Assembly (NCBI GenBank): GCA_022826755.1 | Contig: JAJDUG010000073.1 | Span: 1 to 64,000, forward strand | Direction: 5' to 3' | Length of the DNA: 64,000 nt | Source: Acidobacteriota bacterium | GTDB taxonomy: Bacteria > Acidobacteriota > Terriglobia > Versatilivoradales > Versatilivoraceae | In this document: positions 4,273-13,765 of the stretch, one piece after another | How positions within the stretch are numbered: position 1 is the stretch's first letter | Layout: every line of letters begins with the position of its first letter | Translations under genes and position numbers: made by a program | Notes under the pieces: model-generated | Database searches by the model: none | The model's input: only the letters and a program-made list of their open reading frames with translations | Told to the model about the DNA's origin: nothing

Positions 4273-7200
4273 TCAGTCTCCAATCAGGCCCATGGAACAG
4301 ATGATCTGCGGCTCCTGACGGTCGTCTTCTTCGTGAACGACGCAAAGCCGGTTTTCATCCCTGAGCTCAATGACCCGTTGGGCCAGAGTCTCGTCGGAGA
4401 CACCGCTGCGCAATTGCCGGTTAAGCGTATCCACTGCAGCCTGCCGTAGGGGGTAGCGATAGATGTCGTCGATGGCACGCCGCAGGGACTCGGTATCGAA
4501 CAACGTACCCTTTACCTGTTCGGCATGGTTTTTGAGCCTCTCGTAGGTGCGGAACCTCGCCCCGGAAGGACGACCAAGCTGCCCGCCGACTTGTTTCTCC
4601 TCGCGGGCAATGTGTTCCGCTGCCTCACGCACTAATTGATGATGGTTGTAGTGGCGGGGCAGGGCCGGTGTATCGGGCAGGCATTCCGCCGCGCGCAAGA
4701 TCTCGAATTGACTTTCGGTCACGCTGTTGCCGGCACGATCGAGCCAGGCCAAGGCATCGTTCCCCTGCGCCGTGCGCATGTAGACCAGGGCACCCTCGGG
4801 CTGCCTAGGTTTTTGCTCGTGCGCCTTCGTGGAATAAACAACGGGAGGCAGGTCTCCGATTTTCTTCTTGAGGGACGGGTCGGCTTCGGTTGCGTTCCTC
4901 CAGATTTGATAGGCATAGGAGGACAGGTCAACGTCCGTCTCATCGTCATTGTCGAAAATCCCGGCCTTTTCGTTATAGAGGTCGAGCACGGTCTGTTTGC
5001 CTTCGTCCTCGAAGAATGCCTCGTCCGTTCCCACCACTTCGGCGTTCTCGTGGAGACGTGTTCGGACGCGGGCGCGGAGCCGGATTAGTCGCTCGATGCC
5101 CTCCGCCGGAAGGAAGGAATAACAGAGGATGTCTTGGGCCTGCTGCCCGATGCGGTCTACGCGGCCAGCCCGCTGAATCAAGCGGATAATGGCCCACGGC
5201 AGGTCGTAGTTCACAACGATGGCGCAGTCTTGCAGGTTTTGCCCCTCGCTGAGCACGTCCGTGGCAATCAAAACGCGGAGTTCCTCTTCCGACGTAATGC
5301 GGTCACCTTTCTCGTTGCTCCTGGGACTGAAGCGCCATGCCAACTGCGTCGGGTCGGGAGTATCCCCGGTCACTGCCTCCAGCCTTGGCACTCCACGCGC
5401 TTTTAGCTCCTTCACCAGATAGCGGACGGTGTCGGCGAATTGGGTAAACACCAGAACCTTGTGCTCCGGGTGTTGATTGACAAGCATTCTTTCCAGTGCG
5501 CGAAGTTTGGCGTCCTTGACCGCTTTCCACTGGCCGAATTGAACCAAGAGGTTACGTAATGTTGCGGCGTCCGTGGTGAGGTCTCGGCCAAGATCCGCGA
5601 CAAAGTGGTGGGAGGCCAGCCAGCGAAAGCGCCTATTGAATCGGCTGGCATAAAGTGCATAGATCTCAGCGGCACGCTCGCGGAACTTGTCTTCGGTCCT
5701 TGGGGTCGCGGCTCCCCCGTTCTCTTCGTTCTCGTCGTCGTCCTCTGAATCGAAAAAGTCACCGATAGACTCTTCTGCATCTTCGTCAAACGACTGCGGG
5801 TCCAGGAGCCCGGCGTCGGTGGTTCCGATCGGAAGCGGCAGACCATTTTCTATCGCGTGAATAAAGATGAAGTTCCTGAGAACATGTCGTTCAACCGACA
5901 GCAGGAAGGCATGGCCGCTGCTTTCGAGACGCTTGAAGAGATTGGTTCGGCAGAACCCCATGAGTCGCTTGCCAGCGCGTGACAAGTCGTCCAGAATCTT
6001 GTTCTCAGCTTGGGTCGGCGGCTTTTGGGGAGACGATGTAACGTAATTGCCCAAACCGTAGCGTGGGAGCCCCAGACTGTTGATGGCGTCCACCACGTGA
6101 TCGGCAAATAGCCCCGAATACTGTTCGTCGATCTTGAAACGAACTGTCTTTGGGACACGAACCGGAAAATAGGATCGGGTGCCATCCGCAAACGTCAGGT
6201 ATTTTCGCCCGTTGGCTTGGTCTGTGGACGCATAGTTTTCCTGGATGAAGCTGCGGGTCCGGCGCACCAGGTATAAGCGCATGAGCTCCCGCCAATCGTC
6301 GGCATGCTCCGATTGATCGAACCCAGCCAGGGAGCGTACGGAAGCTTGATGTCGGCGGATGAATTCTGTCGCGCCGATTGTGCGCAACAGGCGCTCGGGC
6401 CGAATTCCGAGGTCCTCGTCTTCAGGAACAAACAGGCGAAGCTGGCTGGAAAGGTCCAGGTAGGTCTTGTTGTACGGCGTTGCTGAGAGCAGGATGCACT
6501 TGCTGTCGTTCTCCCGGATATATTCCTGGATGGCCCGATATCGCTTGCCGTCACGGTTCCTCAGATTGTGGCTCTCATCAATGATCACGAGCCGATAGCG
6601 GCGAATGTCGGGGAGTACCGTAATCGCACGGCTGATGGACAGCACGCGGGCGCGCATACGGTACTGGTCACGGTAGTCTTCCCACATCGGGACGAGGTTC
6701 TTGGGACAAATAATGAGTGTTTCCAGGCCGTGATCGTCCTCGAATACACGCGCCAAGGCGGTCGCCATGAGTGTCTTGCCCAGCCCAACGACATCTCCAA
6801 TCAACACACCGCCGCGCTTGTTCAGGTGATGGGCAGCGATTTTCACGGCCGCCGTCTGAAAATCGAGTAGCTTATTGTTGAAGTCACTCGGGATGCGAAA
6901 CTCCGTCAGACCTGCCCGCGCTTCCTGCGACAGGTGGTAAGCGATCTTGAGGTAGATGTGGTGTGGCGGGATTAGTTCTTCCCGAGCCCAACTCTCCTCG
7001 ATAATCTCGACGAGTTCTTTCGAAATATTTATACACCAACGGTCTTTCCACCGGTCTTCGAACCATTTGGCGAGCTTCCGGCAGGCATCATGATCGAGCA
7101 CGTCGACGTTGAGCTCACCCTGCCGGGACAGCCCAGGAAGAGTAAGATTACTGCTACCCAGGTAGCCGATGATGGGATTGATGGGATCTGCCCGGAACAG

Positions 7201-7635
7201 CAGGTAAAGCTTGGCGTGAAGTGAATGGCGGAGGAACAACTTGACGACAACCTTACCTGCCTTCAACTGCCTGGCTAAACGGCGCAGGCCGATTTCGTCG
7301 GCATTGGTGGGCGCACCGAAGGTCAACTGGATTCTGAACTCCTCGGCAAGCTTCTTCTTGAGCCGCAGCGCCGTCTGATTGTCGAGTTGATTGAGGCTTC
7401 GAGGATTGAATCCTAATGCTGAACGGAGCTCCTCTTGTGGCAATCTCTGCATGCCTACCAGAAGCCGGCACTGGTTGCCAGCGGAACCCGGCCAGCGATC
7501 GACCAGCTCGTCGATCGCCCTCCACCCCCGAAGGTTGAAATACCCCACGCAGAAGTCCGAGCGATCGGACACCTGCAGAGTCTCACGGAGGGCAGGAAGT
7601 AGCGCTTGCTGGATGTTGTCGAAGATTCGGGGCAT
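4273..7635 (-). CDS. PLD-nuclease/SNF2-family helicase fusion of R-M-like system
   Basis: 1120 residues. The N-terminal ~200 residues resemble a phospholipase-D nuclease domain of helicase-associated type: [11 protein letters not shown] (H140, K142) followed by GYLGSSNLT (about 157-164). A superfamily-2 motor follows: Walker [10 protein letters not shown] (280-288), DESH box (353-356), SATPYNK, and motif [14 protein letters not shown] strongly acidic linker ([12 protein letters not shown]) splits the motor lobes. The family couples ATP-driven DNA translocation to cutting. It is the first gene of the minus-strand operon that ends with the adenine methylase, so it is probably the restriction/translocation partner. 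The ATG at 7635 has no close ribosome site; see the mini-ORF entry at 7635-7652. Class I DISARM was considered but drmA, drmB and drmC are absent. Confidence 0.85.
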
Positions 7636-8650: not shown

Positions 8651-10389
8651 TGCTCACCAAGCTCACTATCCGCAACTTCAAGCGTTTTGGCGCGGAGGTG
8701 GAGATCGAACTCGGGAACCCCGTGATCTTCATCGGCCCCAACAACTCGGGCAAAACCTCGGCCATGCAGGCGCTGGCCCTTTGGGATATCGGACTCAAGC
8801 GCTGGAACGAGAAACGGTTGGGGAAGAGTACGCCGGAGAAGCGTCCCGGAGTCACCGTCAACCGCCGCGATCTGATTGCCGTTCCCGCCCCGGATGCCAA
8901 TCTGCTGTGGCATGACCTGCACGTCCGGGACATGCGCAGGATCGAGGGTCGGCAGCAAACCAGCAACGTGCGAATCGATATCGTCGTTGAGGGCGTGACC
9001 AGGGACAGATCCTGGACCTGCGGCCTGGAGTTCGACTATGCCAATGACGAGTCGTTCTATTGCCGGCCCTTGAGACGTGCTGAGGGGAAAAACCCCAATC
9101 GCATGCCGGTTCCCGAGGAAGCTGGAACAGTTCAGATTGCCTTCCTTCCCCCAATGTCCGGGCTCGCCGCCACGGAGACCCGGCTCGATCAGGGAGCGGT
9201 CAATGTGCGAATCGGGGAAGGACGGACCGCCGATGTTCTACGCAATCTCTGCTACAAAGTTCACGAAGAAGAACCTGAGTTGTGGAGGGAACTTGTAGCC
9301 CATATCCAGCGTCTTTTCGGTTCTGAGCTTGCTCCTCCGCGGTATGTTGCAGAGCGCGGCGAGATACTGATGACCTATCAGGAAAACAGGGTCCAACTGG
9401 AACTCTCTTCCTCGGGCCGAGGACTGCAGCAAACGCTGCTCCTTCTTGCCTATTTGTATGCGAACCCCGGGGCAGTCCTTCTGCTGGATGAACCCGACGC
9501 CCACCTGGAGATTCTTCGCCAACGCCAAATCTACGGTTTGCTTACTAGCGTCGCAGGAGCCACCGGAAGTCAGATCATTGCCGCCAGCCACTCGGAAGTG
9601 CTATTCACCGAGGCGGCCGGCAAGGATATGGTCGTTGCCTTCGTTGGCCAGCCGCACCGTATCGATGACCAAGGCAGTCAGGTGTCGAAAGCACTCAAGG
9701 AAATTGGATTCGACCAGTACTCCCAAGCCGAGCTAACCGGCTGGGTACTCTACCTCGAGGGTTCCACCGATCTTTCTGTGCTACAAGCCCTTGCGCAACG
9801 GCTCGGTCACGATGAAGCGACCCATGCACTTGAACGACCGTTCGTGTGCTACATCGGCAACGATGCCTCCGCGGTTCGGCGCCACTTCCATGGACTCAAA
9901 GAGGCCATTCCCCATCTCAAAGGCGCGGCGCTCTTTGATCGCTTCCAAGCTGGAACTCCCGATGTCGCTCCGGTCAGATGCCTGGTCTGGAAGCGGCGGG
10001 AGATCGAGAACTATCTGTGCTCCCAGACAACTCTTGAAGCCTATGCTCAGGCGTCGTCTCCCAACCGTTGGGGCCCGTTGTTTACGGCGGCTGAAGCCGA
10101 AAGGCTAGTCCAAGCAATGCGAGAAGCCATCGTGGACATCGAGGGGGCATTGAAAGCACTTGGCAAAGAATCTCCCTGGTCCTCGGAAGTCAAGGCCAGC
10201 GACGATTTCCTCGATCCTCTCTTTCACAGCTACTTCCAAAAACTTGGCCTTCCAAACTTGATGGCGAAGAAAAACTTCTACGAGCTGACCGCACACGTTC
10301 CCGCAGCCGAAATCGATCCCGAGATATCCGAGAAATTGGACGTCATCGCGCAAGTCGCACGAAGCGCGGAGGCCGCCCAGGAGAATTAA
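8650..10389 (+). CDS. OLD-like AAA ATPase with C-terminal Toprim nuclease
   Basis: 579 residues. An ABC/SMC-type ATPase: Walker A GPNNSGKT (29-36), signature SSSGRGLQQ (253-261), Walker B VLLLDEPDAHLE (276-287) and ASHSEV after it. The C-terminal third looks Toprim-like: VLYLEGSTDLSVL gives a candidate metal-binding Glu (E370), ALFDRF a following Asp (430), and RREIENYL (449-456) is the motif commonly found after Toprim in overcoming-lysogenisation-defect proteins and in PARIS AriB. Such proteins sense phage proteins or DNA ends and cleave nucleic acid. No UvrD-like partner follows, so it is not Gabija; a fused AriA-AriB (PARIS-like) arrangement is possible. It closes the defence block; the next gene is housekeeping. 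Confidence 0.85.
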   Translation: MLTKLTIRNFKRFGAEVEIELGNPVIFIGPNNSGKTSAMQALALWDIGLKRWNEKRLGKSTPEKRPGVTVNRRDLIAVPAPDANLLWHDLHVRDMRRIEGRQQTSNVRIDIVVEGVTRDRSWTCGLEFDYANDESFYCRPLRRAEGKNPNRMPVPEEAGTVQIAFLPPMSGLAATETRLDQGAVNVRIGEGRTADVLRNLCYKVHEEEPELWRELVAHIQRLFGSELAPPRYVAERGEILMTYQENRVQLELSSSGRGLQQTLLLLAYLYANPGAVLLLDEPDAHLEILRQRQIYGLLTSVAGATGSQIIAASHSEVLFTEAAGKDMVVAFVGQPHRIDDQGSQVSKALKEIGFDQYSQAELTGWVLYLEGSTDLSVLQALAQRLGHDEATHALERPFVCYIGNDASAVRRHFHGLKEAIPHLKGAALFDRFQAGTPDVAPVRCLVWKRREIENYLCSQTTLEAYAQASSPNRWGPLFTAAEAERLVQAMREAIVDIEGALKALGKESPWSSEVKASDDFLDPLFHSYFQKLGLPNLMAKKNFYELTAHVPAAEIDPEISEKLDVIAQVARSAEAAQEN

Positions 10390-12731: not shown

Positions 12732-13256
12732 CTACCGGGGATTCAGCTCCTTGAGCTTGGAAACCACGTCCTCAGCGGCCGTGGACGCCTTGACCTGGCG
12801 ATCCACGTAAAGGATCTTCCCGTCCTTCCCGATGTAGAAGGTCCACCGCTCCGGCAGGCTTCGGCTCTCGTGGACGACGCCGTAGGCCCGAGCCGTCGCT
12901 TTTCCGGGATCGCTCAATATGGGATAGTCCGCCTTGAGAGATTCGGCGAATCGGCGGTTTTCGTCAGCGGTGTCGCAGCTCGCGGTGAAGTAGGCAACGT
13001 TCAAGGCTCGCAAGGCTTGGCCGTTCTCACGGAACGACCGGCACTCCGCCGTTCAGCCTCCTGTAAATGCCTTGGGAAACCAGGCCAGCACCACCACCTG
13101 CTTGCCCTTGAACTGCTTCAGGTCGTAGGTCTTCCCGTCCGAACCCGGAAGCGAGAATTCGGGCGCCACGTCTCCGGGCTTCAGGTCGGCTGCCAGAGAC
13201 TGACCCCAGGCGAGAACCAACACGAATGCCAGCACCATGGAGATCTTCATCAACAT
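12732..13256 (-). CDS. Exported selenocysteine-containing peroxiredoxin (UGA at codon 68)
   Basis: 174 residues if TGA at 13055-13053 is read as selenocysteine. The upstream half is MLMKISMVLAFVLVLAWGQS, a signal peptide, then LKPGDVAPEFSLPGSDGKTY and VVVLAWFPKAFTGG; the downstream half is TAECRSFRENGQALRALN, VAYFTASCDTADENRRFAES, and a thioredoxin-fold C-terminus. Joined, the site reads GG-U-TAEC, exactly where AhpC/TSA/BCP peroxiredoxins have FT-x-GCTAEC with the peroxidatic Cys; a second Cys lies four residues on (72). Start ATG 13256 has GGAG 8 nt upstream. A SECIS-type hairpin lies at 13019-13039. The enzyme would reduce peroxides outside the cytoplasm. A rhodanese gene lies 138 bp upstream. 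The only alternative is a TGC-to-TGA sequencing or nonsense change, made unlikely by the hairpin. Confidence 0.9.
13019..13039 (-). promoter_or_regulatory. Bacterial SECIS element for UGA decoding
   Basis: On the minus (mRNA) strand, 13 nt after the UGA, GGUCGUUC pairs fully with GAACGGCC (seven Watson-Crick pairs and one G-U) around loop CGUGA. The loop starts 22 nt after the UGA and has G at its second position. As I know bacterial SECIS elements, they need a short apical loop with an early G about 16-37 nt from the UGA, so this fits. The stem is made from codons for RSFRENGQ, so coding is kept. Confidence 0.85.
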
Positions 13257-13393
13257 TGGAGTCTCTCCTTTTTTGACGGCTTGGGACTTTCCATCAAGAC
13301 CCGACGGGGCTTGAGGCGAAACCGGACTGCCTTCAGGATCTTCATGACGCATCAGGGGCCCTACCGCATCCGGCCATCCTGCAGCAACCGGGT

Positions 13394-13765
13394 CTACGTC
13401 CCGGTGACCGGATTTCCCGACGCCACCCACTCCTTGTAACCTCCCGCCAGGGAGAACACGTTTTGGTAACCCATTCGCTGCAAGGCCTCGGCCGACAGCG
13501 CCGATCGGTAGCCCCCGCCGCAATAGAGAATAATCTCGTCGTCAGGGTCAGGCACCAGCTCTTGGATGTCCCTTTCGATAATCCCCTTCCCCAAGTGGAC
13601 GGCATCCTCCGCATGGCCTCGGGCCCACTCGTGGTCTTCGCGGATATCGATGAAGTGGAGGGATTGCCCGCTCTTGAGCCTTTCACGCGCCGTAGCCACC
13701 GAAACCTCTCGAATCCGGGACTTGGCATCGTTGACGATCCGCAAGAATGCCTCCGAGTGCTGCAT
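13394..13765 (-). CDS. Single-domain rhodanese sulfurtransferase
   Basis: 123 residues. The active-site loop is YCGGGYRSALSAE with the sulfur-carrying Cys near 82; FIDIREDHEWARGH and VFSLAGGYKEW are the usual flanking rhodanese motifs. It moves sulfane sulfur to an acceptor such as thiols or cyanide. GAGGAG lies 9 nt before the ATG. It lies upstream of and in line with the selenoperoxiredoxin (138 bp gap) and downstream of ttcA, another sulfur-handling gene. No signal peptide, so cytoplasmic. Confidence 0.88.
   Translation of the reverse strand: MQHSEAFLRIVNDAKSRIREVSVATARERLKSGQSLHFIDIREDHEWARGHAEDAVHLGKGIIERDIQELVPDPDDEIILYCGGGYRSALSAEALQRMGYQNVFSLAGGYKEWVASGNPVTGT

Follow-up and report, generated by a model that had tools for sequence, protein, structure and literature searches.

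Known selenocysteine peroxiredoxins and related enzymes

Peroxiredoxins with selenocysteine (Sec) in a TxxU motif form an established family, for which there is experimental evidence from Eubacterium acidaminophilum and whose predicted members run into the hundreds (PMC13188914, PMC2398784, PMC5029168, PMC1794560). An earlier note on the DNA described here likewise mentions such proteins in some bacteria. Acidobacteria were listed in a 2006 survey with four selenoproteins in three families. The gene described here lies on the window, i.e. the whole 64-kb stretch of DNA that was analysed. Its product, with UGA read as Sec, resembles the Sec peroxiredoxin family (PF00578, TxxU; PMC13188914, PMC2398784, PMC1794560) in its AhpC/TSA domain, in Sec at the peroxidatic position of PxxxTxxU and in a bacterial-type SECIS after the UGA, but it differs by a probable signal peptide and by an unusual Cys at +4.

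The closest proteins by sequence and fold belong to the PrxQ/BCP group (PRK09437, Sulfolobus Bcp1, Mycobacterium tuberculosis BcpB), in which the peroxidatic residue likewise shares its helix with a Cys. However, PrxQ/BCP proteins have Cys where the window protein has Sec, and their second Cys is found at +5 (CTKEMC in 2ywn; CTREAC in L138, the Bcp of the same genome) instead of +4 (UTAEC). M. tuberculosis AhpE resembles the window protein in fold (TM about 0.78, normalized by query length), but it contains Cys in place of Sec and is described as a 1-Cys enzyme lacking a resolving Cys. Finally, the Prx-like UxxC thiol:disulfide oxidoreductase selenoproteins (PMC1088965, PMC2398784) share PF00578, Sec and a bacterial origin with the window protein.

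No NCBIfam model is matched at its cut-off by the window protein: PrxU (NF040737) gives 35 bits, with a cut-off of 270, thiol peroxidase PRK09437 gives 78 of 140 and PrxQ 69 of 260. The literature searched holds no description of an exported or acidobacterial Sec peroxiredoxin, while bulk lists in the supplementary tables of surveys may include the subfamily. Since no NCBIfam model fits and no describing paper was found, the gene represents a new member, and arguably a new, exported subfamily, of the known Sec peroxiredoxin family.

The gene and its in-frame UGA

On the minus strand, positions 13256-12732 form a single frame from ATG (13256-13254) to TAG (12734-12732), whose sole break is a TGA at 13055-13053; the two in-phase open frames separated only by this codon, pointed out in the earlier note, are thus halves of one gene. 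Its main features are the following:

12732-13256, minus strand: predicted Sec peroxiredoxin gene, 174 codons from ATG to TAG with one in-frame TGA (frame, Pfam match, relatives, AlphaFold2 model)
13265-13270, minus strand: Shine-Dalgarno-like AAGGAG, 8 nt 5' of the ATG (sequence reading)
13053-13055, minus strand: UGA at the peroxidatic position, putative selenocysteine 68 (every family member has TGA or a Cys codon here; PxxxTxxU motif)
13041-13043, minus strand: codon of Cys72 at +4, the probable resolving residue (conserved in all 78 aligned members)

When TGA is read as U, a product of 174 aa is obtained, which matches Pfam AhpC-TSA over residues 27-150 (109.5 bits, 1.3e-31) without interruption across the TGA. 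The codon falls exactly on the peroxidatic Cys of the PxxxTxxC motif (PKAFTGG-U-TAEC) and the Cys at +4 is retained as Cys72, both as the earlier note had read them. Promoter and terminator scans around the gene gave nothing, an Rfam search of the 64-kb window returned no RNA family and ARAGORN detected no tRNA on it.

No functional partner was found in the gene neighbourhood. A single-domain rhodanese gene (13397-13765, minus strand) lies upstream of the peroxiredoxin gene, an arrangement that only a few near relatives have. Elsewhere on the window, a protein of PLD-nuclease/SNF2-type helicase type (4276-7635, minus strand) and an AAA_21 ATPase (8653-10389, plus strand) are encoded near each other, possibly as a defence island.

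Relatives and the codon at position 68

Homologues were searched in 396 Acidobacteriota genomes, one per sampled species, and in GTDB contigs, where 80 loci with titles were obtained. In the first collection close homologues are about 49-64% identical and most have exactly one TGA; the TGA form is present in 47 of the 396 species. The nearest relatives are from Acidobacteriota, which bears out the acidobacterial context supposed before, while many of the GTDB-contig loci come from Planctomycetota and Verrucomicrobiota, where the exported subfamily is also found. Among plasmids, only distant relatives were detected.

The alignment with cysteine homologues that had been proposed as a check comprises 110 good family sequences from the three phyla, window included, with a few genomes occurring in both collections. 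The codon aligned with position 68 is TGA in 77 and TGC or TGT in 33, with no other codon. Because relatives either repeat the TGA or carry Cys at the same codon, a chance origin of the TGA is excluded at the level of sequence comparison.

A single change from TGC or TGT to TGA, either as a nonsense mutation in a Cys peroxiredoxin or as a miscalled base at 13053, would look alike in one genome, and the earlier note had indicated reads with a Cys codon at this place as one finding that would overturn its reading. The TGA is however kept in four relatives of 91-94% identity from separate records, one of them Candidatus Versatilivorator vitaminiformans, besides its recurrence in 77 of 110 sequences overall. 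Moreover, dN/dS 3' of the TGA is 0.07-0.18 between the window and these four nearest relatives; therefore the second half of the gene is under purifying selection as protein. Together with the hairpin described below, these data make a pseudogene or an assembly error extremely improbable.

Selenocysteine decoding machinery

Absence of the decoding genes from the genome had been named as the other result that would speak against a selenoprotein. The genome, of 4.6 Mb in 81 contigs and with a completeness rating of 100%, contains all of them: SelA (contig C15, 525 bits), SelB (C69, 341 bits), SelD (C68, 347 bits) and a tRNA-Sec with anticodon UCA (C74, locus L001), identified by Rfam and confirmed by ARAGORN. 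Two further loci, L002 and L003, score above the Rfam tRNA-Sec gathering score and are yet tRNA-Ser genes, hence passing this score is by itself no proof of a tRNA-Sec and L001 alone is counted as such. The selenoprotein reading is thus supported both by this machinery and by the TGA kept in relatives.

The selD gene (L021:1501-2430, contig C68) has its own in-frame TGA near the start (MVSCAGUASKLAP), so that the selenophosphate synthetase of the source genome is probably a selenoprotein as well, and UGA appears to stand for Sec in two genes of this genome or more. L138, a further peroxiredoxin match of the same genome with one TGA, was rejected, since the TGA precedes the coding part of what is an ordinary Cys Bcp.

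An open frame by itself leaves the inserted residue unnamed, and UGA could in principle specify another amino acid, through a code change or a suppressor tRNA, or be misread as Cys. Relatives, however, show Cys as the only alternative at this site, the genome has a full Sec apparatus including tRNA-Sec(UCA) and, among the genes met in the genome searches, an in-frame TGA within a conserved domain occurs only in selD and in the peroxiredoxin gene. Decoding other than Sec is accordingly regarded as very unlikely, also in view of the hairpin.

In the sampled Acidobacteriota, selA was found in 44 of the 47 species with the TGA form versus 6 of 12 Cys-only species, by our own count from the scan tables (Fisher p 0.001, which ignores relatedness). 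The three TGA genomes with no selA match are G046, G104 and G151, the last one rated 100% complete.

A SECIS-like hairpin inside the coding region

Directly 3' of the UGA, within the coding region, the RNA can fold into a stem-loop:

13019-13039, minus strand: SECIS-like hairpin GGUCGUUC-CGUGA-GAACGGCC, apical loop at 13031-13027 (folding; comparison of TGA and Cys genes)

The loop starts 21 nt after the UGA. The 7-bp stem and the loop CGUGA agree with bacterial SECIS elements, which are characterized by a G in a small apical loop, as described in PMC1088965. Folded alone, the window hairpin has a stability that is not unusual (z -1.27), and for this reason its support comes from comparison. 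All pairs of the 7-bp core stem are present in 55 of 67 unique Sec sequences versus 1 of 32 unique Cys sequences; a mean of 6.73 of the 7 pairs is observed, versus 3.62 (sd 0.20) with random synonymous codons. For the Arg of the loop, CGT is used by 64 of 65 Sec genes versus 3 of 22 Cys genes (p 4e-15), although the p values for hairpin and codon, too, ignore the relatedness of the sequences. The stem pairs covary: one is GC or AT and its neighbour CG or TA. A pattern in the protein accompanies this covariation, as all TGA sequences except three have Leu-Ser (46) or Phe-Asn (18) at +7 and +10, two residues that are uncoupled in Cys genes. Tree-aware tests on independent pairs, for both the hairpin and the residue coupling, go in the same direction without significance, the well-supported pairs being too few.

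The hairpin is kept essentially only by TGA genes, which argues against a decayed or miscalled Cys gene, and its specificity for these genes argues against decoding of the UGA as another residue. Selenocysteine insertion is therefore the reading followed below.

Fold, active site and export

An AlphaFold2 model built from 78 family members (mean pLDDT 92.1, pTM 0.84) displays a peroxiredoxin fold, with BcpB, Bcp1, AhpE and PrxQ as Foldseek matches; the first 20-odd residues are poorly placed outside the fold. In the model, Sec68 is at the start of helix 66-77 and Cys72 one turn further. Thr65, Sec/Cys68, Cys72 and Arg137 are invariant in the 78 aligned members and P61 nearly so. Thus the protein displays the AhpC-TSA domain, the PxxxTxxC/U motif and the active-site Arg of peroxiredoxins, where the conserved Thr and Arg serve to activate the residue at the peroxidatic position. 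For Cys72 we only infer a resolving role, since it is placed at +4, as against +5 in the PrxQ-type relatives.

The first half of the protein had been said to carry a signal peptide, and reading of the sequence points the same way:

13191-13256, minus strand: residues 1-22 as probable signal peptide, with cleavage likely at SLA-AD (sequence; low-confidence N-terminus; hydrophobic stretch in members)

By eye, the N-terminus MLMKISMVLAFVLVLAWGQSLA-AD shows n, h and c regions followed by a small-x-small site. A hydrophobic N-terminal stretch is present in 71 of 71 Sec members and in 31 of 33 Cys members, with a lipobox-like site in a few of them; given the occurrence of the hydrophobic stretch in all the TGA members, the family as a whole is likely to be exported or anchored in the membrane.

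A ResA/TlpA-like Sec thiol-disulfide oxidoreductase acting on periplasmic disulfides, rather than a peroxidase, would also have a signal peptide and a redoxin fold with Sec near a Cys, and the protein gives weak ResA matches. Such a function appears unlikely, since the active site is the PxxxTxxU of peroxiredoxins and not WCxxC, Thr65 and Arg137 are invariant, and the best relatives of solved structure are BcpB, Bcp1, AhpE and PrxQ. A peroxidase thus remains the preferred assignment.

Exchange of Sec and Cys and further peroxiredoxin groups

In a tree of 104 members, parsimony requires at least 13 exchanges between Sec and Cys, three of which are forced by well-supported branches; therefore the two residues were swapped repeatedly. 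The proteins of L082, which has Cys (TGT), and L089, which has TGA, are nearly identical; in L082 the CGT loop is absent and one stem pair is lost, a pattern that fits a recent switch from Sec to Cys, as expected soon after Sec loss.

The earlier note had considered an exported Sec peroxiredoxin unusual in an acidobacterial context. This was not confirmed, given its presence in 47 of 396 species and the existence of a second divergent group of exported Sec peroxiredoxins in Acidobacteriota (L142-L156, L158, L159), with TGA at the same site (FTGG-U-TxEMKAYQ; TREMKAYQ) and without the +4 Cys. Exported enzymes of this kind are therefore common in Acidobacteriota. In L142, of the second group, a different apparent hairpin is seen by eye after the UGA (GATACC-AGGCT-GGTATC). 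L157 encodes a PrxQ-like protein whose peroxidatic codon is TGA (ANTPG-U-NLEASEFRDE) and which may stand for a third Sec peroxiredoxin lineage.

Proposed function and significance

The gene very likely encodes an exported selenocysteine peroxiredoxin, with export and peroxidase activity predicted from its sequence. Because a SECIS-type hairpin follows the UGA and SelA, SelB, SelD and tRNA-Sec are encoded in the genome, we propose that SelB would bring Sec-tRNA to the UGA at 13055-13053, so that the ribosome continues to the TAG at 12732; when selenium is scarce, translation would stop at the UGA, leaving a 67-residue fragment without active site. The signal peptide would direct the protein over the inner membrane, where Sec68, activated by Thr65 and Arg137, would reduce peroxide and be converted to selenenic acid, which would then be resolved as a selenenylsulfide by Cys72, a helical turn further on. 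Regeneration might be provided by a periplasmic reductase, e.g. a thioredoxin-like protein or the DsbD-type (DsbD_TM) protein encoded in the genome, which is a candidate reductant and no more.

More tentatively, the family may constitute a widespread, undescribed clade of exported Sec-x3-Cys peroxiredoxins that protect the periplasm of Acidobacteriota, Planctomycetota and Verrucomicrobiota against peroxide, with DsbD-type recycling and repeated Sec/Cys exchange; here the SECIS, lying within the codons of the active-site helix, would constrain the protein, and the joint change of +7 and +10 (Leu-Ser or Phe-Asn) would preserve the RNA stem. Many natural Sec/Cys pairs occur in the family, such as the nearly identical L089 and L082, with which the benefit of selenium to a non-cytoplasmic peroxidase could be tested; in addition, genes that have a SECIS can be compared with matched genes that lack one. 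Standard gene calling splits or drops the gene, as had been anticipated; reports may therefore understate how far common bacteria of soil and sea depend on selenium and defend themselves against peroxide.
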